A DNA stretch of 64,000 nt, from contig CP136061.1 in the NCBI GenBank assembly GCA_032622095.1, positions 252,599,582 to 252,663,581 on the forward strand, given 5' to 3'. The notes beneath the pieces were generated by a model that worked only from the letters and a program-made list of their open reading frames with translations, had not been told where the DNA came from and made no database searches. The position numbers and the translations under genes were made by a program. The DNA comes from Siphonodentalium dalli. Lineage: Eukaryota > Mollusca > Scaphopoda > Gadilida > Siphonodentaliidae. Below, piece after piece: positions 3,080 through 62,960 of the stretch (positions are counted from its first letter, which is position 1; each line of letters opens with the position of its first letter).

Positions 3080-4855
3080 AGTTCTGTTTGTCGGGGCGTT
3101 CGTCTGTCCATCTGTTCACTTTTGGTTTCCAGTTGATAACTTTAGATAGTCTCAACTGAATGGAATGAAATTTGGTATGTGGGTTTACCAAACACAAAAT
3201 ACAGGTCAAGTTCGAACTTGGGCTCCACCCGCCAATTTTTAGCTGCGTTATGGCCCATTTTTATGCAATATGAGAAAGTCTGAACTGAATGGAATGAAAT
3301 TTGGTATGTGAGTTTACTTGCCCAAAATACAGGTCAGTGTCAAATTTGGGTTCCACTCGTCAAATTTCACCCGAGTTATGGCCCTTTGTTGGAATTGCCA
3401 CACCCTGGGCTATGCTCTTGCCAAACTTGAAATTGTGTTTTTTTTAAAGGGAATTTTTCTTCTTCTGATTCATAAGACAAAAACAGTCTATTTGCTTTCA
3501 GTCGTGCATACTGATATTGATGGAATTCATTGACCTAGTGGGGTACCCTGATCAAGCCTTGAAATAGAGTGTCTGTCATTTTTTTGCAGAATGAGGTCCC
3601 CAGAGGGTGAATTTAATGATGCTACCTCGCATAGCGGGTTAGCATCACCAAATTCACCCTCTGGGAACCTCATTCTGCTGAGTAAGCAGAATGAGGTCCC
3701 CAGAGGGTGAATTTGTTGATGCTAACCCGCTATGCGGGGTAGCATCACTAAATTCACCCTCTGCGGACCTCATTCTGCAAATGACAGACACCCTATTTCA
3801 AGGCTTGGGTACCCTGATACTTATTTGAAACTATCCTTGTTTTAATTGTTCAGAGATGTTTCAGAACAATAACACATTTTGCTGTTTTTATACGCTTGTT
3901 TTGAAAAATGTTTTATTATGTTATTGGTTTAGCCGTCCGTCCATCCATCCATCTGTCCATCTATCTGTTCACTTTTTTTCATTGCCCGATGATACCTTTA
4001 GTAAGTCTGAACTGAATGGAATGAAATTTGGTATGTGTGTTTTACTAGCACAAAATAGTGGTCAAGTTCGACTGTTCGAATTCTGGTTCCGCCCGCCAAT
4101 TTTCATCAGAGTTAATTGCCCTTTTTGTTGGTATTTATAATCAAGTTTCATTTCCGGATGATAACTGTAGTAAATATGAACTGAATGGCTCATAATACAG
4201 GTGAAGATCAAATTTGGGTTCCGCCCACCAATTTTTGCCAGGGTCCTTGTTGACTTAGAATTTGCCGATTATTTTGGTTTCCGGATGATAACTTTAGTTT
4301 TAGTTATCTGATTGTTTTTAAATGTGGTATATGGAATACTCGTATGAAAATACAGGTCAAGTTCAAATTTGGGTTCCGTCCCCTTATTTTAACCCGAAGT
4401 TATTGTCCTTGTTGACTTATAATTTGACGATTATTTTAGTTTCCGGGTGATAACTTTAGTTTTAGTTGTCTGACTGTTTTCAAATTTTGTATTTAAATTA
4501 GCCACATGAAAATACAGGTCAAGTTCGAATTTGGTCTGCCCATTTTTGCCGGAGTTATGGTCCTTGTCCACTTAGAACTTGCCGATTATTTTTGTTTCTG
4601 GGTACTAACTTTAGTTATCTGATTGTTTTTAAATTGGGTATATGGATTACTCATATGAAAATACAGGTCAAGTTCGAATTTGGGTTCCGTCCGCCTATTT
4701 CAACCGAAGTTATGGTCCTTGTTGACCTATAATTTGACGATTATTTTGGTTTGCGGGTGATAGCTTTGGTTATAGATATCTGTTTGTTTTAAAATTTGGC
4801 ATACGGAGTACTTGTTATGGCCCTTTGTTTAACTTACCATGGGCGTACTCTTGTT
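3080..4855. repeat. Array of diverged mollusc-style dispersed repeats
   Basis: Repeated phrases ATGAAATTTGGTATGTG, AATACAGGTCAAGTTC and GGTTCCGCCC recur at roughly 150-200 bp spacing, interrupted by R2 at 3553-3807. Related blocks lie at 32380-32620 and 49268-49540. No protein is supported. Confidence 0.7.
3553..3807. mobile_element. R2 foldback element, complete, with 11-bp flanking repeat
   Basis: Ends are CAAGCCTTGAAATAG and its inverse CTATTTCAAGGCTTG; the interior has two foldback units around GAGGTCCCCAGAGGGTGAAT. The 11-mer GGTACCCTGAT lies directly on both sides (3542-3552 and 3808-3818), which looks like a target-site duplication. Confidence 0.85.
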
Positions 4856-12027: not shown

Positions 12028-12232
12028 TTATATCTGATAATTTAATGCCGTTATTTTTGCAGGTACCGTGGATCTACCATACGTAATATCTTACCGATGG
12101 GCAGATTCTAAATTATATCTGATAATTTAATGATGTTATTATTACAGGTACCTTGGATCTACCATACATAATATCTTACCGATGGGCAGATTCTAAATTA
12201 TATCTGATAATTTAATGCTGTTATTATTACAG
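12028..12232 (+). pseudogene. Two decoy copies of exon 7 acceptor and start
   Basis: 85-bp units starting TTATATCTGATAATTTAATG contain acceptor-like TTTTTGCAG|GTACC (exon start 12063) and TATTACAG|GTACC (12148). Both continue in the exon 7 frame as GSTI(R/H)NILPMGRF and then TAA. The third unit is exon 7 itself. Confidence 0.9.
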
Positions 12233-12323
12233 GTACCTTGGATCTACCATACGAAATATCTTACTGATCGGCAGATTCCGGAAGCAACAATCTGACAGCA
12301 CGATTGGTATGAAGGAGAAGGAG
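12233..12323 (+). CDS. MAP3K5: ASK1-like exon 7 (third copy of a triplicated acceptor unit)
   Basis: Acceptor TTATTATTACAG, donor GTGTGT; 91 nt, phase 2 to phase 0. It reads YLGSTIRNILLIGRFRK and ends GMKEKE. Of three 85-bp tandem copies only this one lacks the TAA after GRF and runs on to a donor, so it is chosen as the functional exon. Confidence 0.9.
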
Positions 12324-14122: not shown

Positions 14123-14490
14123 TTAACCCTTTACCCAACAGAACGGCCCTGTGCCAATGCATTCTCTTATATATGCGAGTCGACCATAGGTCGCCTCGCA
14201 TATATAAGAGAATGCATTGGCTTAACACATTAAAAATTATAAAATTGTTAAAGAATGTAAGAAAAAATGGTAAAAAAAGATTTTTTTTAGGCCAATGCAT
14301 TCTCTTATATATGCGAGGCGACCTATGGTCGACTCGCATATATAAGAGGATGCATTGGCACAGGGCATAACTGTAACTATCACAATGTGGTCAAGGAGCC
14401 GGTTCCAATGATATCCATATTTGTATCGTTTTATTGAGACAGACCCAAGATAATTTAGGCTGTTGCAGCTTTATTTGGCCGGTTAGAAGG
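14123..14490. mobile_element. TTAA MITE family A, right end missing, two hairpins
   Basis: Begins TTAACCCTTTACCCAACAGA. It carries the 69-bp palindrome at 14153-14221 and again, inverted, at 14291-14359, and runs to TTTATTTGGCCGGTT, where the terminal TTAA expected from other copies is missing. Confidence 0.85.
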
Positions 14491-14815
14491 TGCCCATATA
14501 GTAATAGAAAATAGCTGAAATCATAAAATCATTTCCCCCATTATGGCTCACAGAGTGCAACAGAATTCAAACTATAGTTCATTTTCAATCGAAGGAGAAT
14601 AACTCTATATCTAAATATATAGAGTTATTCTCCTTCTTTTGAAAATAACACTTTGTGTAGAAATTTCAGCAGTGAACAGATGTCCGTTTCTCAACAAAAA
14701 CAACAAGTTCACAGTTTATTACATCGGATAAGTTGAAAATACAATATTTTGGAGCTTCCTCTTTCAAATGGTATATAATGTGGCATATATTTTATATAAT
14801 GTGATTTGGGCGTTT
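14490..14815 (-). mobile_element. MITE family G, inverted copy downstream of exon 9
   Basis: GGAGCTTCCTCTTTCAAATG and GAGTTATTCTCCTTC match family G in reverse, opposite to the arm at 13795. It contains a small palindrome around TATCTAAATATATAGAG. Confidence 0.75.
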
Positions 14816-15143
14816 GAAAATACCGTGGGAACCTGCACACCTGCTATTATGAGTTCTGTCTGACTCCTTTTAGAGGAGTTATTAACCTTTTTCAAGTTAC
14901 AAATATTTTGTAACCCTATTAATTTGTCGGACCTTGTATTACTTCATTTATTGGTCAATATTTTAAAAACTTGGGATTATTATTGACCATCATCTCAATT
15001 ATTATATTATTATATAGCTATATGCTTTTGGCTTGAAGGGGTTAAAACACAACCCGTATCTATATTACATAATGTATTTAATACTAACACATGATATTAT
15101 CCCCTCTCCAGTTGAGCTACAGTGTCATTGACACTTTTATTCT

Positions 15144-15382
15144 GGGCTATGCTTTTGGCACGTTCAACCGAGTGATGAGGATAAATAATAATAATAATAA
15201 ATATAATTTGTTTATTTTTGTAGGCTGTATGCTTTTAGCATGTTCAACTGAGCTTGAGTTAATTTGAGATAATATGCTATGATTTATTGATTTTTTTAGG
15301 CTGTATGCTTTTAGCATGTTCAACTGAGCTTGAGTTAATTTGAGATAATATGCTGTGATTTATTGATTATTGATTTTTTTAG
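15144..15382 (+). pseudogene. Three upstream copies of the exon 10 acceptor side
   Basis: Copy a (15144-15187) matches exon 10 best (TGCTTTTGGCACGTTCAACC) but has lost the AG. Copies b (from 15224) and c (from 15300) keep pyrimidine-rich acceptors ending TTTTTGTAG and TTTTTTTAG, but read AVCF then TAG in the exon frame. Exon 10 is the fourth copy. Confidence 0.9.
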
Positions 15383-15471
15383 GCTGTTTGCTTTTGGCAT
15401 CTTCAACCGAGTGACGGGGATAAATCACAGCATGATTGGAGTTTCTCCGCATCGACAATAAAGGGTGTCAG
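15383..15471 (+). CDS. MAP3K5: ASK1-like exon 10, with repeated splice sites on both sides
   Basis: Acceptor GATTTTTTTAG, donor CAG|GTAACT; 89 nt, phase 0 to phase 2. It reads AVCFWHLQPSDGD, then DWSFSASTIKGV, the PH-like segment containing the conserved LWHV-type strand. Copies of its first bases lie upstream (15144-15330), and its last bases plus donor are amplified downstream in a 27-bp array. Use of any later donor puts a TAA in frame directly after GTC AGG. Confidence 0.9.
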
Positions 15472-16197
15472 GTAACTATCGACGATAAAGGGTGTCAGGT
15501 AACTATCGACGATAAAGGGTGTCAGGTAACTATCGACGATAAAGGGTGTCAGGTAACTATAGACGATAAAGGGTGTCAGGTAACTATTGACGATAAAGGG
15601 TGTCAGGTAACTATAAAGGGTGTCAGGTAACTAAAGGGTGTCAGGTAACTATTGACGATAAAGGGTGTCAGGTAACTATCGACGATAAAGGGTGTCAGGT
15701 AACTATTAACGATAAAGGGTGTCAGGTAACTATCAACGATAAAGGGTGTCAAGGTAACTATCGACGATAAAGGGTGTCAGGTAACTATCGACGATAAAGG
15801 GTGTCAGGTAACTATCGACGATAAAGGGTGTCCGGTAACTATCGACGATAAAGGGTGTCAGGTAACTATCAACGATAAAGGGTGTCAGGTAACTATCGAC
15901 GATAAAGGGTGTCAGGTAACTATCGACGATAAAGGGTGTCGGGTAACTATCGACGATAAAGGGTGTCAGGTAACTATCGACGATAAAGGGTGTCAGGTAA
16001 CTATCGATGATAAAGGGTGTCAGGTAACTATCGACAATAAAGGGTGTCAGGTAACTATCGATGATAAAGGGTGTCAGGTAACTATCGACGATAAAGGGTG
16101 TCGGGTAACTATCGACGATAAAGGGTGTCAGGTAACTATCGACGATAAAGGGTGTCAGGTAACTATCGACGATAAAGGGTGTCAGGTAACTATTAAC
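15472..16197 (+). repeat. 27-bp minisatellite made of the exon 10 end plus its donor
   Basis: Counting the exon's own copy there are 28 units of AAAGGGTGTCAGGTAACTAT plus CGACGAT. Two units (near 15600-15640) are shortened. GTAACT is intact in every unit; the preceding CAG is changed in units 12, 15, 19 and 25 of my count. The 27-bp period preserves frame, but each unit has a TAA in the exon frame. Confidence 0.95.
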
Positions 16198-16203
16198 TTT
16201 TCC

Positions 16204-16290
16204 TGAAGCTTCGTGGTCCAGTGGTTAGTGCGTTGGACTTGTCTTCGCTGTCAACACAGCGAGATGAGTTCACAGCCCACCGCTGGTCTA
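16204..16290 (+). repeat. tRNA-like sequence, probably a SINE head
   Basis: CGTGGTCCAGTGGTTAGTGC fits a tRNA D-arm and box A, and GAGTTCACAGCCC is a weakened box B. No matching acceptor stem is seen, so it is not called as a tRNA gene. Confidence 0.4.
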
Positions 16291-16309
16291 TTATTTTCAC
16301 ACTGCAGTG

Positions 16310-16967
16310 CAGGGTTCGCACGGGCCTTGAAAACTCCTTGAATTTTCTGCTTGTATTGGAAAGTCCTTGAATGAATTTTATTTCTTGAAAAGTACTTGAA
16401 TTTCCCACTAATAGCTTGAAAAGTACTTGAATTCTAGTCATCGCGGAGTTTGATAGGGGAAACAACCGATTCAGTGTCATTTGATCGTTGACTTTCTCTC
16501 GGGGAACGCAAATCGAACACAAGTACAGCGAACTGATGCCTCACTTCATTATGTTTAGCTAGAAGCGCGTAAAGTGATGACATGTACGCAACTATACCTA
16601 ACCGGTACTGCATGAACTCGTGACGTGTGCGCATGTTGTTTTGTTTGTAAAAGCACGTGCTTTTCTAAGAAATAATTTTTCGCTTCGCAAGTTCTTTTCA
16701 TCTTCCAACAATAGGGAAAATGTACTTTCAACAATCAATGGTTAAACAGGCCAGAATACGCAATCATTTGACCTCAGTAAAATGGGAGAAAGCGCACTGA
16801 AATCTCATGCAAAATTGGAAAAACATCGAGCTGCTGCTGGGGGCCAATTGGCCCCCAGACCCCGGCCTGTTGTGGCAAGACTCGCTGCACTCAGCAGAGT
16901 TTTTCAGCCTTGAAAATGGCCTTGAGTTGGCCTTGAATTTTATCTGGCCTTGCCTGTATGAACCCTG
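16310..16967 (+). mobile_element. Short hAT-like element with CCTTGAAAA repeats and BED-finger remnant
   Basis: Ends CAGGGTTCGCACGGGCC and, inverted, CAGGGTTCATACAGG; GCAGTG flanks both sides (16304-16309 and 16968-16973). CCTTGAA motifs fill both subterminal regions. The + strand at 16782 reads MGESALKSHAKLEKH, the C-terminal half of a BED-type zinc finger, closely like MGESALTSH in the element at 51978. Confidence 0.85.
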
Positions 16968-17271
16968 GCAGTGGCTTGGCGAATTGATCGATGTGCAATT
17001 GTCCGATTGTACGCTGTTCATATTTTGTGCCAAGTTGTGACCCTTGAGCAAGGTCTCCTGTACTGTGTCTATTTTGTACCACCCATGCGTCGAAAAGGGT
17101 ACCCGATTATGAGCAGTGGAAGATATTGTCACATTGTGGCTGTACCTCCCCATGTCCCTGGGGAGCAGTAGATGGTTACTGAGTGTTCAGGCTCATCAGG
17201 GTAATAATTGTCACACGCATTGGAACGGGTACTTAATCGATTATTATTATTATTATTCCTGCTCGTCTTCT

Positions 17272-17450
17272 GTATTTAACCCTTTCTATACTAAATTACC
17301 CTTTTCTTTACTAAATGGATTCATCCATTCAGTTATAAAAGTATACATTGTAAGGGTCTATTATTCACATGAAGGGGTGTCCAGAAAAAAATAAGCAGAC
17401 GACAGACATTAAACAGTGCAGAAGGATTCATATTCCTTGGTGAGAAATAT
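17272..17450. mobile_element. TTAA MITE family E, fragment
   Basis: AACCCTTTCTATACTAAA, CAGTTATAAAAGTATACATTG and CAGAAGGATTCATATTC match the family E element at 32765-33200. Confidence 0.65.
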
Positions 17451-17639
17451 TCAGATAATAAGTCGTTTGTTGAACTTATTAGCGAGTTTGCGATACCCGT
17501 TGGACGGGAACGGGTACGGGTAGATCGGTTAACATCGTCACGGTAACTTGGGTACTTTCGATGTAGCGCATAAAGCGATAACGATTTGGAACGGGTAGAT
17601 GTGTCACCTTTCACTACGATTTTCTCACTCAAAGGTTCA

Positions 17640-20008
17640 TTAATTCAATGAAATTCCAGTTAGCTATGCGTTAATCTATTTATTAAAGATTCCATGGGCA
17701 AATATCAAAGATAAAGTTGTCATTTAAACCCAAGTTTTATGTTCAAATTATCGAGGCGGCTTCTAGCACTTAGATAAATACGGAACGCCGATATTTCACT
17801 AACAACTGTGTTCAGTGCATTAATGACAGGTTGTGTTAATTGAGTGAGTTGATGGTGCTATAGACACAATTTCGACACATTGCAGGGACGTGGCTATAAC
17901 TGGTATCCGCGTTAGGAAGGGTGCCCACCTAACTACACCCCTTGAAGTTGAACCATATCAAATTACATGTTTGCGCGTAAATTCCATTTGCATGCACCTC
18001 CCCTGGGCTTTGGTTTTTCCCCCAACTGGTTCCTCACAACTGCTTGGATAGTAGCATATTCTAAATGAATCAGTAGTCTTTTTGTCACTATCCGGGTGGG
18101 CATATATATAATCCACTGGGCCGACCATGGAGTACAAAAAATGTGTGAACCTGAAAAATCCTAATATCTTAATATCTAGTGGTCTAACGCCATGCAAATT
18201 CACTTTCAATTTTTGTTTCTTAAATTAATTACCAGTTTCTGACTGACCACTGACCACCCGATCGACCATGGTTCGGCACGGTGTGAAAAATGTTTTAAAT
18301 TGGAATTTGCTAAATCCTAGCATCCAGACTGGCATCAAACTGTCCAAGTGTTGGAGTTGTTGAGAGCTGCTGACACCCCCCCCCCCCCCCCCCCCCCCCC
18401 CATAAAGGTAAAGGTTGGAAAATTTCCAAAAGTTTCTGATAGTCATTTCAGTCCAAATTGTTTACAAAAAAAAAGGAAATTATGCAAATGTTGGTCTAAA
18501 AACAACAAATTATCCATTAATAAATTGTTGAAAAATCCAAGTACGAGAACAAATTCAACCTTTGAAATTTACAACAAATTTTGTGTCAGGTATATGAAAT
18601 TTCCAATCTTGAACATTTGACCAAAGTTGGGGTGAGACATCCCTGTCGCCAATTTCCCTGTCTCTACCCATTGTACAAGGGTATCAATATATTGTGGATT
18701 TATCCATGTATATATTGCAAATTTGAATACAACCGTTTAGTTACTTTATCGTATGTATGTGGGGACTGGTTTCTCATTTTAATATATATTTACCATCTGA
18801 AAGGACATGGCGCATTTGAACCACAGTGCTGGTGTATATCGTTTTTGGGATAATACAGGTCGCTAAAGACACGAAATACCTATACAAACTCTACGAAATC
18901 TAAGCATAATCAGAGCGAGTTTCAGCTGTTTTCTGTTTTTCGCATAGAAGTGAAGCAAATGCTCTTTTTCAATCCATATAATAAACAGACTACATTTTAA
19001 CATATTTTATTGTTACAACAAATAAAGATTACAAACCAATGTTACTTAAAGGTACTCAACCCGACCAGACGGTTCCCATATCATCAAGTTACAACAACAA
19101 CAACAACATTTCTTCAAAATACGCTTTTGTCATCAGAATCCATTAATTAAAAAAAAACGCTTTATTTATCAACATGTTGTTCAACGAAATATGGCCGTAT
19201 TGTCACGACATTTGTCCGTATTACCACTTGATTTTAGAGTTATCCATCTTCGTCAAATTTTTCCGAGGCCGTCGGTTTGATGACACTTTTCTGCCACAAA
19301 TAATTACACATTTCAAGAAATAACAAATTTCAAAAATCACATATCTGATCACTCTGAGCTTTGATGGGTGGGTTCATCGACTCGAATCTAATATTTTTAC
19401 CCCGACCCGCAAAGCTAAAAAATGTAACTTGTGAGTGTTAATTCGGATTATGCCTCTTTAATATGACTTAATATTCCCCAACTAAAATGAGGGACAAATT
19501 CGGTCTCATGTCTGACTAAAGGTACGAGTCGTATATTGTTAGACCCTATTATCTGAACATTGTCCACTGGGTCAGGCAGATTGCAATATTTAATGTTTTT
19601 TAGTTCAAGTTTTGTTTGGTGAAAACAAATAATTCCATCTGAGACTTTTAATGTGGAAAACAAGGTTTTATTTTAGTGAGAATGGTAGATTACAATATTT
19701 AACGCTGTTTTGTTTAATGAAACCAAATTTTTCAAATTTGGACTACTAACAAATTTCTCTTTCGTAAACTTACAAATAATGACATTGAATTTTCTCTAAA
19801 TCAAATCAGTCTTATGTGTATGATTCAATTAGGTTTCCGTTAGCTGCCACATGCCCATGGGATCAGTTGGAGAATATTTAGCAACATTTTCCCCAACTCA
19901 TTTCTGATCTGAAGGCCTGACAACAATAAATAAAAAAATAGAGATGTCAACTTTAAAAAGGGCCTGAATTCAAATTAGTTAAACAGATATATACATATTA
20001 TTTCTCAC
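17640..20008. other. Intron 10, unassigned stretch
   Basis: AT-rich sequence with a 26-C run at 18376-18401 and no exon, tRNA or transposon I can recognise. The short open frames here show no family signature. Confidence 0.6.
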
Positions 20009-20474
20009 ATATGTGACCCGCCATATAAAATCCAGTCGTAAGTCGGGATTTTTTTTACCCTGTGCCAATGCATTCTCTTATATATGCGACTCGACCATAG
20101 GTCGCCTCGCATATATAAGAGAATGCATTGGCCTAACAATTTTTTACAATTTTAATAATTTTTTCTTGTATTCTTTAACAATTTTATAATTTCACCCATA
20201 CAGAGCCCCAGACAAACATGAGCAGACGACACTCTTCTATATGCTTTTATATATGTGTGGGGCTCCCTGCAGGGTAATGGATGTTTTTTATTTTATGTCC
20301 TAAAAATTGTAAGAAACATTTATTTAAAAAAAATGATAAAAAATTGTTAGGCCAATGCATTCTCTTATATATGCGAGGCGACATATGGTCGACTCGCATA
20401 TATAAGAGAATGCATTGGCACAGGGTAAAAAAAATCCCGACTTACGACTGGATTTGATATGGCGGGTCACATAT
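20009..20474. mobile_element. MITE family I with paired 69-bp palindromes
   Basis: Long terminal inverted repeats starting TATGTGACCCGCCATAT, then GTCGTAAGTCGGGATTTT. The palindromes sit at 20064-20132 and 20351-20419 in opposite orientation. The spacer carries CCCATACAGAGCC, also found near 45590. Confidence 0.85.
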
Positions 20475-21927
20475 ATGCCCAAAATGATATAGTTTAGGCC
20501 AAAAAAAAAAGGGTTTTGATTCTCGGGCATAGCCGCGTCTGGAAAAAAGGCCCGCGTTGAAGCATTTTATTACGATTTTCAAATTGACCGAACCTGTCAA
20601 ATGATAACACGAAAATAGGAAATTAGAAAAGAGAAATTAGTTATGTTTCAAACATCGAATATGATAGACATACAATGGTGTATGTGTTGGTATTCAACAA
20701 CAGACACTAGGCAATGATAACTACGAGGTATATTGTCACCACAAGCTGCCCAAACCCCAAGTTTATTAAGTCAAATGTGTTTCCGTGCTGTAAACAATTA
20801 TGTGATTTCCAATTTCGTGAACACAAACCGGAAAGAAATATGGTGCGTATTGGCGATGTGTATGCTGGTTTAATTTAATAGTATTTGAAGTTTTTATGGC
20901 TAGCATGTATAGTTACTATAGTATAGATGGATAAATATTAAAGTATATAGATAGATATAAAATTTATAATCCCGATTTAAACTTTGTTTGTTTTAGTTCT
21001 GTTTCCGTCTTTGTCATATTCCGTGTTTTATATACGCAGTAACAGAGAACGCGAATCGAATGGACCTCAAACCATTCTTACCAACAATTCTGTCCATGGA
21101 TGCGTATTCTCTTTAACAGTGTTTAAATTCACCGATGTTACTGAATATATTTGCCGACAAAATTATCCGAGAGCACCATTTTATAGTGTGCAAATATATT
21201 TTTAATCGTTGTATTTTGGCTTGTTGGAAATAAAGCGTGATCCATAACCGAAAAATCATAATTTTATTCCCGATGATTCAGTGATTTTAGAAATTAGAGA
21301 CACTCGGTAGTCAGTGTCAAGGCCGTTAACTGTGCATAGATCATAGATGTACTAAACTGTGAATACTTGTGTGCCTTTGAATGCAGAAAATCAAGAAACA
21401 GGTAACTGAGGTGTGGCAGATGCAAACTAAAATTAAATGCAACAAACAGTCTATGACATTTAAATAAAAAATATGAAGTGTTTTCCATGTTACTGACATT
21501 GAAAAAAATCTCCTTATTTTTCACTAAATTTGAGGACAAATCTCCCTATTTCCAATTATGAAAGTGAACAGGTCTGATATAAATAGATATATACTATAAA
21601 AAGGTACATACATATATCAAATATACCAACAATATATATATGATGTACGGGTAGTATAATGTGATAATTGGTCATTCTTTATAGTGGAATACATTAGTTT
21701 ATATCAAAACAATGTTCTCCTTAGATGTTCTTAACCTGGGAAGGTATAATAACCCATGCTAACTATGGGCATTATCCCCATAACAAAAATAAAAAATAAA
21801 AATAAAACACTCACTCCCTCATCGAATCTCCAAAAAAATTGCCCGAGAATCAAAACAATTTATTTTTTTGGCCTTAGCATGTAACTTTCATATAAATAAT
21901 ACTGGTTTATGTCAAAGTACGGTTAAC
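20475..21927. other. Intron 10, unassigned stretch
   Basis: No coding similarity, RNA gene or repeat family recognised on either strand. Confidence 0.6.
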
Positions 21928-21999
21928 TTACTCTTCTATAACAGACGTTGGAAAATGTTCCACATAGTTACATTTAAAATATATTTGGTTAGTTTTGTA

Positions 22000-22139
22000 G
22001 TGGGAGGGTGAAACATGTTTTGTAGTGAAATATTGTTTTTCTGTTTTGAGTCTGTATAAAATATGTTTGGGTTTTGTAGTGGGAGTATGTTTCGTTAGTT
22101 TTGTAGTGGGAGTGTGAACTATTGTTTTTATGCTTTCAG
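22000..22139 (+). pseudogene. Decoy copy of exon 11 acceptor
   Basis: GAAATATTGTTTTTCTGTTT then GAG|TCTGTATAAAA (exon-like start 22051) repeats GAACTATTGTTTTTATGCTT then CAG|TCTGTACAAG of exon 11 at a distance of 89 bases. TTTTGTAGTGGGAG recurs three times around it. From the decoy the frame runs 22 codons and stops at TGA. Confidence 0.75.
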
Positions 22140-22238
22140 TCTGTACAAGAGAGATAGTCGAGCTATATTTCTTTATGTCCAACAAAACGCTGATGATGAC
22201 TTCCAGATATTCTTTTCATCAGAAGTTCAAAGGAAAAG
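22140..22238 (+). CDS. MAP3K5: ASK1-like exon 11
   Basis: Acceptor TTATGCTTTCAG, donor GTACAT; 99 nt, phase 2 to phase 2. It encodes SLYKRDSRAIFLYVQQNADD followed by DFQIFFSSE, closely matching the PH-like region before the kinase domain. The intron before it is about 6.7 kb. A copy of the acceptor and exon start lies 89 bases upstream. Confidence 0.93.
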
Positions 22239-22428
22239 GTACATAAAGGGGCACTGTATTTGTACATAAAGGGGTACTGTATTTGTTTTATCTTTTGTTA
22301 ATCAATAAAAAATAACAATAAACAAACATAACCCGATTCTGAATAACTTCAGTTTGTGGGTTCTACTAAAGTACATACTTTCTAATGCCATAACATGCCC
22401 ACGGCAATCTCCGATGTGTACCAATGCT

Positions 22429-25375: not shown

Positions 25376-25386
25376 GTATAATGTCA

Positions 25387-26638
25387 GCTTCTAGTGGGTA
25401 AGACATGGTACCTCTTGTCGTAGTGTTATCAGCTTCTAGTGGGTAAGACATGGTACCTCTTATCGTAGTGTTATCAGCTTCCAGTGGGTAAGACATGGTA
25501 CCTCTTATCGTAGTGTTATCAGCTTCTAGTGGGTAAGACATGGTACCTCTTATCGTAGTGTTATCAGCTTCTAGTGGGTAAGACATGGTACCTCTTGTCG
25601 TAGTGTTATCAGCTTCCAGTGGGTAAGACATGGTACCTCTTATCGTAGTGTTATCAGCTTCCAGTGGGTAAGACATGGTACCTCTTATCGTAGTGTTATC
25701 AGCTTCCAGTGGGTAAGACATGGTACCTCTTATCGTAGTGTTATCAGCTTCTAGTGGGTAAGACATGGTACCTCTTATCGTAGTGTTATCAGCTTCTAGT
25801 GGGTAAGACATGGTACCTCTTATCGTAGTGTTATCAGCTTCATATGGGCAAGACATGGTACCTCTTATCGTAGTGTTATCAGCTTCTAGTGGGTAAGACA
25901 TGGTACCTCTTGTCGTAGTGTTATCAGCTTCTAGTGGGTAAGACATGGTACCTCTTATCGTAGTGTTATCAGCTTCTAGTGGGTAAGACATGGTACCTCT
26001 TATCGTAGTGTTATCAGCTTCCAGTGGGTAAGACATGGTACCTCTTATCGTAGTGTTATCAGCTTCCAGTGGGTAAGACATGGTACCTCTTATCGTAGTG
26101 TTATCAGCTTCTAGTGGGTAAGACATGGTACCTCTTATCGTAGTGTTATCAGCTTCCAGTGGGTAAGACATGGTACCTCTTATCGTAGTGTTATCAGCTT
26201 CCAGTGGGTAAGACATGGTACCTCTTATCGTAGTGTTATCAGCTTCCAGTGGGTAAGACATGGTACCTCTTATCGTAGTGTTATCAGCTTCTAGTGGGTA
26301 AGACATGGTACCTCTTGTCGTAGTGTTATCAGCTTCCAGTGGGTAAGACATGGTACCTCTTATCGTAGTGTTATCAGCTTCTAGTGGGTAAGACATGGTA
26401 CCTCTTATCGTAGTGTTATCAGCTTCCAGTGGGTAAGACATGGTACCTCTTATCGTAGTGTTATCAGCTTCCGGTGGGTAAGACATGGTACCTCTTATCG
26501 TAGTGTTATCAGCTTCCTATGGGCGAGACATGGTACCTCTTGTCGTAGTGTTATCAGCTTCCAGTGGGTAAGACATGGTACCTCTTGTCGTAGTGTTATC
26601 AGCTTCTAGTGGGCAGGACATGGTACCTCTTGTCGTAG
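25387..26638. repeat. 45-bp minisatellite, about 28 copies
   Basis: Unit TCTAGTGGGTAAGACATGGT then ACCTCTTATCGTAGTGTTAT. Because 45 is divisible by 3, one minus-strand frame stays open for 397 codons as repeats of MSYPLEADNTTIRGT. C/T and A/G variants alternate between units. Confidence 0.96.
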
Positions 26639-31534: not shown

Positions 31535-31786
31535 CAAGCCTTGAAATAGGGTGTCTGTCATTTGCAGAATGAGGTCCCCAGAGGGTGAATTTAGTGATGC
31601 TACCAGCATAGCGGGCTAGCATCACCGAATTCACCCTCTGGGAACCTCATTCTGCTGAGGTGTAAGCAGAATGAGGTCCCAGAGGGTGAATTTGGTGATG
31701 CTAGCCTGCTATGCGGGGTAGCATCACTAAATTCACCCTCTGGGGACCTCATTCTGCAAATGACAGACACCCTATTTCAAGGCTTG
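31535..31786. mobile_element. R2 foldback ending 13 bases before exon 14
   Basis: Complete two-unit element from CAAGCCTTGAAATAG to CTATTTCAAGGCTTG. No flanking duplication is visible. Confidence 0.88.
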
Positions 31787-39499: not shown

Positions 39500-39804
39500 C
39501 CCACCCCGCAACAAAGTTGTTGGGGTATACTGGAATCAGCTTGTCCGACCATTGTCCGTCCATCGACACAAATTTGTCCGGAGTTTTTCTCAGTTGTTTT
39601 TTAATCATTTTCCATGAAACTTGGCACAGACATTAACCACCATGGAAATCTGTGCACCTGCGATTTTAATGTCTGTCAGACTTATTTTCGCAGAGTTATT
39701 GGCCTTCTTGACTTAGAATATTTTCAATCGTTAATACAATCATGGACACAATCTTGTCTGGAGTATTTCTCAGTTGTTCATGAATCTTTTTTTGTTAAAC
39801 TTTG
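39500..39804. repeat. Dispersed CATGGGAACCTGTGCACC repeat, left flank of the 65-bp array
   Basis: Two diverged units with CATTTTCCATGAAACTTGG and TGTGCACCTGCGATTTTAAT, as at 12380-12960. Confidence 0.8.
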
Positions 39805-42100
39805 TACAGAAATCACCCACCATGGGAGGGAGCTCATACTACGCACCGCCATGGGATCCTGTGCACCTGTACAGAAATCACCCACCATGGGAGGGAGCTC
39901 ATACTACGCACCGCCATGGGATCCTGTGCACCTGTACAGAAATCACCCACCATGGGAGGGAGCTCATACTACGCACCGCCATGGGATCCTGTGCACCTGT
40001 ACAGAAATCACCCACCATGGGAGGGAGCTCATACTACGCACCGCCATGGGATCCTGTGCACCTGTACAGAAATCACCCACCATGGGAGGGAGCTCATACT
40101 ACGCACCGCCATGGGATCCTGTGCACCTGTACAGAAATCACCCACCATGAGAGGGAGCTCATACTACGCACCGCCATGGGATCCTGTGCACCTGTACAGA
40201 AATCACCCACCATGGGAGGGAGCTCATACTACGCACCGCCATGGGATCCTGTGCACCTGTACAGAGATCACCCACCATGGGAGGGAGCTCATACTACGCA
40301 CCGCCATGGGATCCTGTGCACCTGTACAGAAATCACCCACCATGGGAGGGAGCTCATACTACGCACCGCCATGGGATCCTGTGCACCTGTACAGAAATCA
40401 CCCACCATGGGAGGGAGCTCATACTATGCACCGCCATGGGATCCTGTGCACCTGTACAGAAATCACCCACCATGGGAGGGAGCTCATACTACGCACCGCC
40501 ATGGGATCCTGTGCACCTGTACAGAAATCACCCACCATGGGAGGGAGCTCATACTACGCACCGCCATGGGATCCTGTGCACCTGTACAGAAATCACCCAC
40601 CATGGGAGGGAGCTCATACTACGCACCGCCATGGGATCCTGTGCACCTGTACAGAGATCACCCACCATGGGAGGGAGCTCATACTATGCACCGCCATGGG
40701 ATCCTGTGCACCTGTACAGAAATCACCCACCATGGGAGGGAGCTCATACTACGCACCGCCATGGGATCCTGTGCACCTGTACAGAAATCACCCACCATGG
40801 GAGGGAGCTCATACTACGCACCGCCATGGGATCCTGTGCACCTGTACAGAAATCACCCACCATGGGAGGGAGCTCATACTACGCACCGCCATGGGATCCT
40901 GTGCACCTGTACAGAAATCACCCACCATGAGAGGGAGCTCATACTACGCACCGCCATGGGATCCTGTGCACCTGTACAGAAATCACCCACCATGGGAGGG
41001 AGCTCATACTACGCACCGCCATGGGATCCTGTGCACCTGTACAGAAATCACCCACCATGAGAGGGAGCTCATACTACGCACCGCCATGGGATCCTGTGCA
41101 CCTGTACAGAAATCACCCACCATGGGAGGGAGCTCATACTACGCACCGCCATGGGATCCTGTGCACCTGTACAGAAATCACCCACCATGGGAGGGAGCTC
41201 ATACTACGCACCGCCATGGGATCCTGTGCACCTGTACAGAAATCACCCACCATGAGAGGGAGCTCATACTACGCACCGCCATGGGATCCTGTGCACCTGT
41301 ACAGAAATCACCCACCATGGGAGGGAGCTCATACTACGCACCGCCATGGGATCCTGTGCACCTGTACAGAAATCACCCACCATGGGAGGGAGCTCATACT
41401 ACGCACCGCCATGGGATCCTGTGCACCTGTACAGAAATCACCCACCATGAGAGGGAGCTCATACTACGCACCGCCATGGGATCCTGTGCACCTGTACAGA
41501 AATCACCCACCATGGGAGGGAGCTCATACTACGCACCGCCATGGGATCCTGTGCACCTGTACAGAAATCACCCACCATGGGAGGGAGCTCATACTACGCA
41601 CCGCCATGGGATCCTGTGCACCTGTACAGAAATCACCCACCATGGGAGGGAGCTCATACTACGCACCGCCATGGGATCCTGTGCACCTGTACAGAAATCA
41701 CCCACCATGGGAGGGAGCTCATACTACGCACCGCCATGGGATCCTGTGCACCTGTACAGAAATCACCCACCATGGGAGGGAGCTCATACTACGCACCGCC
41801 ATGGGATCCTGTGCACCTGTACAGAAATCACCCACCATGGGAGGGAGCTCATACTACGCACCGCCATGGGATCCTGTGCACCTGTACAGAAATCACCCAC
41901 CATGGGAGGGAGCTCATACTACGCACCGCCATGGGATCCTGTGCACCTGTACAGAAATCACCCACCATGGGAGGGAGCTCATACTACGCACCGCCATGGG
42001 ATCCTGTGCACCTGTACAGAAATCACCCACCATGGGAGGGAGCTCATACTACGCACCGCCATGGGATCCTGTGCACCTGTACAGAAATCACCCACCATGG
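39805..42100. repeat. 65-bp minisatellite, about 35 copies
   Basis: Unit AAATCACCCACCATGGGAGG, GAGCTCATACTACGCACCGC, CATGGGATCCTGTGCACCTG. Copies are nearly identical, with scattered ATGGGAG/ATGAGAG, ACGCA/ATGCA and AGAAATC/AGAGATC changes. The unit has no stop in any + frame and 65 is not divisible by 3, so all three + frames stay open for hundreds of codons. Confidence 0.97.
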
Positions 42101-42229
42101 GATCCTGTGCAACTGCAATTTTAATGTTGGTCAGATTTATTTTGGCAGAGTTATTGGCGTTCTTGACTGAGAATATTTTCATTTTTCTCAGTAATATTTT
42201 TTACCAATTATTTGTGTGAAGATGATGTT

Positions 42230-54363: not shown

Positions 54364-54617
54364 CAAGCCTTGAAATAGGGTGTCTGTCATTTGCAGAATG
54401 AGGTCCCCAGAGGGTGAATTTAGTGATCCTACCCCGCATAGCGGGCTAGCATCACCAAATTCACCCTCTGGGAACCTCATTCTGCTGAGGTGTAAGCAGG
54501 ATGAGGTCCCCAGAGGGTGAATTTGGTGATGCTAGCCCGCTATGCGGGGTTGCATTACTAAATTCACCCTCTGGGGACCTCATTCTGCAAATGACAGATA
54601 CCCTATTTCAAGGCTTG
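54364..54617. mobile_element. R2 foldback, complete
   Basis: CAAGCCTTGAAATAG to CTATTTCAAGGCTTG, two foldback units. No flanking duplication is visible. Confidence 0.88.
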
Positions 54618-62860: not shown

Positions 62861-62960
62861 NNNNNNNNNNNNNNNNNNNNNNNNNNNNNNNNNNNNNNNN
62901 NNNNNNNNNNNNNNNNNNNNNNNNNNNNNNNNNNNNNNNNNNNNNNNNNNNNNNNNNNNN
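62861..62960. other. Assembly gap, exactly 100 N
   Basis: A round 100-N block normally marks a gap of unknown length. The right side does not continue the palindrome. Confidence 0.98.

Follow-up and report, generated by a model that had tools for sequence, protein, structure and literature searches.

A tandem array of 28 near-identical 5' splice sites was found across the boundary between exon 10 and intron 10 of a predicted ASK-type MAP3K gene in the window (the whole stretch of 64,000 nucleotides that was analysed), and the full-length protein requires the first of these donors. The array was interpreted, with a probability of about 0.7, as a minisatellite of the 'mirage' type, in which a short stretch of an exon-intron boundary has been multiplied in an ASK/MAP3K5-type kinase gene and has remained passive, the steady-state mRNA being the normal one.

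The array was delimited at 15451-16191 by a unit-by-unit count (plus strand, as for all features below unless stated), by which the range of the original prediction, 15454-16197, was corrected. The unit, ATCGACGATAAAGGGTGTCAGGTAACT, is composed of 21 exon bases followed by 6 intron bases, and 25 of the 28 units are 27 bp long, units 7, 8 and 12 being 20, 18 and 28 bp, respectively. The array starts inside exon 10 and continues beyond donor 1 at 15471, and the exon-intron boundary is thus spanned. GGTAACT was intact in all 28 units and CAG/GTAACT (slash at the splice point) was kept in 24 of them, the remaining four carrying CAAG with an inserted A (unit 12), CCG (unit 15) or CGG (units 19 and 25); the earlier counts of 28 kept GT donors and of four units that had lost the upstream CAG were both reproduced. 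TRF returned the array as 15451-16193 with 28.1 copies and a score of 1267, and the best TRF score was between 38 and 62 in each of ten first-order Markov shuffles of the window. CAGGTAACT occurred 29 times in the window on both strands against 0.47 expected occurrences, 24 of them inside the array, and the 20-base core ATAAAGGGTGTCAGGTAACT was matched 27 times in the window with up to 3 mismatches, every match lying within the array. The existence of the array is thereby confirmed, at a level well above any chance expectation. No exact match to the unit pattern was obtained in prokaryote and viral collections, which contain no animals, and no match was obtained in a plasmid search with 14400-17000. 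AATAAA, a hexamer of polyadenylation type, was present shortly upstream of the donor only in units 1 (15451-15477) and 23 (16030-16056) of the 28.

The exons of the gene were placed by a translated search of the window, followed by hit inspection and joining of frames; their numbers, 'exon 10' included, start with the earliest exon that could be placed. Nineteen exons (E1-E11 and E13-E20) were placed at 821-43017; E12 was not found between 22238 and 28886 in this search. The joined E1-E11 were free of stops, as were the joined E13-E20, and the gene extends past the placed exons, its start not being found in the window. The joined pieces matched MAP3K5 (8qgy) at 2.6e-111, and all of the 13 PDB sequences returned for them at 1e-60 or better were named MAP3K5. 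Exons 8-11 matched Pfam ASK_PH (PF19039) at 3.7e-34 and PDB 5ulm (MAP3K5) at 6.3e-33, MAP3K_TRAF_bd was matched above its cut-off by open frames located at exon 1 and at exon 5, and among the three kinase-exon frames scanned singly one reached the Pkinase cut-off and two did not. The product is accordingly predicted from sequence similarity to be an ASK-type MAP3K with MAP3K5-related PH and kinase domains. Exon 10 (15383-15471, 89 nt, ending at donor 1) and exon 11 (22140-22238, the acceptor partner of donor 1) were assigned by homology and frame, both encoding parts of the PH domain, and their join from 15471 to 22140 aligned with MAP3K5 (GVS/LYKRD versus GVS/ISKFE) with no residue inserted. 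Because this alignment crosses the junction without an insertion, donor 1 was taken as the real donor, 22140 as the real acceptor and 15383-15471 as exon 10, as far as homology can show; the exon 10 call, the donor and the acceptor given in the original prediction were upheld by this join and by the ASK_PH and 5ulm matches.

The protein consequences were determined by a frame check of all 28 donors, and the open reading frame was preserved by donor 1 only. Donors 2-28 occupy 15472-16191, with the last exon base ranging from 15498 (donor 2) to 16185 (donor 28), and any exon ending at one of them retains the intron part of unit 1, the TAA of which stands in frame at codon 31 in 27 of 27 cases, as had been claimed in advance for the first donor as the only source of full-length protein. 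The further claim of an exon-frame TAA in each of the units did not hold: the TAA was in the exon 10 frame in 23 of the 28 units, units 7-11 being out of frame because the two short units shift the frame and the extra base of unit 12 resets it. The outcome is unaffected by the lower count, since the in-frame TAA of unit 1 sits in every exon ending at donors 2-28. Exon 10 measures 89 nt with donor 1 and up to 803 nt with donor 28, and a stop at codon 31 would cost the remainder of the PH domain as well as the whole kinase domain, which is encoded by later exons.

Other boundaries of the same gene were also found to be copied. The acceptor of exon 10, together with the 5' part of the exon, is preceded by two copies of itself at 15202-15382, with acceptors at 15224 and 15300 that look intact (pyrimidine content 0.71, equal to that of the real acceptor) and an in-frame TAG at codon 5 in each, and a more degenerate copy without the AG was located at 15135-15186. 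The 3 acceptors and 28 donors of exon 10 give 84 combinations, of which 1 gives the full-length protein. Over the acceptor of exon 7, an 85-bp repeat of 3 units (12028-12278) carries decoy acceptors at 12063 and 12148, each leading to an in-frame TAA, and the real acceptor at 12233, and this triplication is a second mirage in the ASK-type gene. A 23-bp repeat of 2.1 units, detected by TRF at 22239-22286, adjoins the 3' end of exon 11 directly, its start coinciding with that of the intron.

Tandem repeats made up 17% of the window, the G+C content of which was 36.7%. The number of splice sites touching a repeat was 4 of 38, against 8.2 expected from circular shifts (P 0.08 for a count this low or lower), and the number of border bases lying in repeats was 2 of 38 against 7.8 (P 0.017). 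Targeting of repeats to splice sites was rejected, the overlap not exceeding the circular-shift expectation, and in view of this lack of enrichment the high repeat density is enough to explain the placement of the array. Several further repeats were recorded in the window. A 65-bp unit was repeated about 35 times with 99% matches at 39803-42102, within the intron that separates exon 19 from exon 20, and was open as an 806-aa stop-to-stop frame despite a unit length not divisible by three; a 45-bp unit was repeated about 28 times at 25384-26638, with a minus-strand open frame of 407 aa consisting mostly of 15-residue repeats. A dispersed palindromic element with GCCAATGCATTCTCTTATATAT occurred at 14153, 20064, 27159, 30888 and other positions (35 occurrences, both strands), and a 26-base piece of it gave no exact match in the prokaryote and viral collections, with no animals included. 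A unit of about 100 bp with inverted ends, GCAGAATGAGGTCCCCAGAGGGTGAATTT, was present in approximately 2 copies each at 3586-3778, 31564-31757 and 54393-54588.

For the analysis of substitutions, 24 full-length units after unit 1 were counted, unit 1 being left out as exonic and units 7, 8 and 12 for their length, unit 12 having in addition a CpG change and the inserted A. Twelve substitutions were obtained, of which 9 affected the four bases of the two CpGs and the other 3 the A of CAG, with a CpG bias of P 3.7e-6 by Fisher's test, and 8 of the 9 were CpG transitions. This pattern suggests methylation-driven decay, and the variation would be that expected of methylated DNA under no special constraint. 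The ratio of observed to expected CpG was 1.49 in the array versus 0.68 in the window, and such CpG richness would fit a young array. If the non-CpG rate is applied, all GTs would escape substitution with a chance of 0.77 and all GTAACT with a chance of 0.46, and with a single rate over the whole unit the corresponding chances are 0.41 and 0.07. Selection on the array donors was therefore regarded as unproven, the intact GTs being likely by chance (0.77 at the non-CpG rate), and the kept GTs, pointed out in the original prediction, were not supported as a sign of anything, since 77% of arrays would keep every GT by chance alone at that rate.

The donors were further compared by predicted U1 pairing and accessibility. 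The pairing of CAG/GTAACT was predicted at -8.0 kcal/mol (24 of the 28 units), the seventh strongest among the 19 placed donors, and that of the CGG, AAG and CCG variants at -7.3, -6.5 and -5.2 kcal/mol, respectively. Predicted accessibility was 0.009 for donor 1 and ranged from 0.001 to 0.036 over the 28 array donors, with a median of 0.004, and the median for the 19 gene donors including donor 1 was 0.012; by these predictions the array would be, if anything, slightly less open than the gene donors overall. Since the array donors are alike in predicted pairing and accessibility, the computed features do not single out donor 1, a point against the passive reading given below. The first 298 nt folded no better than shuffled sequences (z 0.93, with 172 of 200 shuffles at least as stable), and an RNA structure that hides donors was unsupported by the folding and accessibility predictions. 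Comparison of the window with Rfam gave nothing at the gathering score, and no tRNA was detected in it by ARAGORN with the bacterial code.

For the origin of the array, the ancestral intron probably began with GTAACTATTAACTT, the sequence into which the last unit continues. The second donor would have been created by a local duplication spanning the boundary, for which AT may have served as microhomology, and further units may have been gained by unequal exchange or slippage. The array would be tolerated while donor 1 supplies enough mRNA: exon definition would favour donor 1, which gives an exon of 89 nt, compared with as much as 803 nt for donor 28, and mRNAs made with the later donors would be cleared by nonsense-mediated decay, the resulting steady-state mRNA being the normal one by analogy with amphioxus mirages. 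A passive minisatellite with productive mRNA predicted from donor 1 is the most likely reading. It is backed by the array anatomy, the gene identity with its exact junction, the codon-31 stops and the acceptor repeats of exons 7 and 10, as well as by the repeat placement statistics, the CpG-driven variation and the published amphioxus mirages.

An unlikely but substantial alternative is that the array acts as a leaky competitor, in which the later donors, helped by their intron proximity, take a large share of U1, the stop-carrying mRNAs are degraded or yield a kinase-less ASK fragment, and the copy number sets the kinase output as an unintended rheostat. The 27 extra near-identical donors, each producing a stop, would supply such competition; however, no selection signal was found on the donors, and long exons, here of up to 803 nt, are poorly suited to exon definition. 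It is further favoured by the available text of PMC6002489, in which the intron-proximal one of two comparable donors is reported to be preferred, by a mechanism called 'not known' there; this preference would predict late-donor use and counts against the passive reading. The U1 footprint given in the same text, 23 nt upstream and 12 nt downstream, exceeds the 27-nt spacing, so that simultaneous occupancy of all donors would be impossible and neighbours would compete directly. According to the accessible part of PMC5585400, SRSF1 shifts the choice to intron-proximal donors and hnRNP A1 to intron-distal ones, and donor choice could thus be regulated. Against leaky competition, amphioxus mirages are described without splicing disturbance in the available text of PMC3087553 and PMC3902484. 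A stronger form is improbable, namely that the array is a splicing rheostat set by copy number, in which more units place a larger share of the ASK pre-mRNA in stop-containing exons and the amount of a stress kinase is tuned by an unstable minisatellite, and that mirages, provided the host lies outside the cephalochordates, are general in minisatellite-rich animal genomes.

An assembly artefact, with the array copy number inflated or wrong in the scaffold, was judged very unlikely. Minisatellites are frequently misassembled, and a 100-N gap elsewhere in the window (62861-62960) indicates a likely scaffold, but the variants scattered among the units, together with three length variants, are unlike a simple stutter of one unit. 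Recursive or self-erasing splicing, in which each CAG/GTAACT would serve as both acceptor and donor and whole units would be removed silently before the final join, is hardly credible: although the join of any two units restores CAG/GTAACT, the array AGs lack a pyrimidine tract (pyrimidine fraction at -20 to -4 of 0.29-0.35 for 28 of 28 array AGs versus at least 0.53 for 19 of 19 placed acceptors), and recursive sites were rejected on this content.

The full-length protein requires the outermost, intron-distal donor, and the locus offers a natural test of the choice among identical splice sites, with 28 near-identical donors at a 27-nt spacing that lies below the U1 footprint cited from the available text of PMC6002489. 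Should the copy number vary between individuals, the influence of position could be measured in vivo without engineering, as could U1 occupancy and exon definition.

The array was compared with known systems as far as the available text of the respective sources allows. The name 'mirages' was given to tandem repeats lying across exon-intron boundaries of amphioxus Adh3 (PMC3087553), and the same source describes a mirage at the acceptor side of exon 2 of the amphioxus globin BflGb6, with 6 and 3 units in two haplotypes, a duplicated 3' boundary of exon 2 in BflGb9, and length instability of the mirages. Regular splicing was apparently undisturbed according to the Adh3 data and globin RT-PCR (PMC3087553), as it is also described in PMC3902484, where lancelet PGBD5 (imperfect copies) and TnC are further mirages. 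Unit lengths of 10-72 bp are given for Adh3, and the globin units are longer, at about 150-160 bp (PMC3087553, PMC3902484). As in these mirages, the present array is a tandem repeat across an exon-intron boundary in which the AG/GT signals are copied (many, not all, in amphioxus), and as in amphioxus either exon end is affected, since exons 7 and 10 of the ASK-type gene also have copied acceptors; the array differs in its 28 units of about 27 bp and in its location in an ASK-type kinase gene, and the likeness is one of anatomy alone. No description of an array of 28 donors, and none of mirages under that name outside lancelets, was found in the accessible part of the open-licence full-text literature. 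Introns gained through tandemly duplicated AGGT segments share the duplicated AG/GT in tandem repeats and the potential donor/acceptor pairs (PMC3443670, available text); unlike them, the array extends an existing intron, and its copied CAGs lack pyrimidine tracts. In human segmental-duplication genes, internal minisatellites at an exon-intron boundary may likewise alter gene structure, but these belong to recent primate paralogs, with 4 units of 30 bp as the mean over all variable repeats of the study (PMC2812944, available text). Intronic minisatellites are known from an earthworm metallothionein gene, for which no boundary array is described in the accessible text. Judged by its sequence, the array appears to be an unusually long case of the known mirage repeats, boundary-spanning repeats not being new as a kind.
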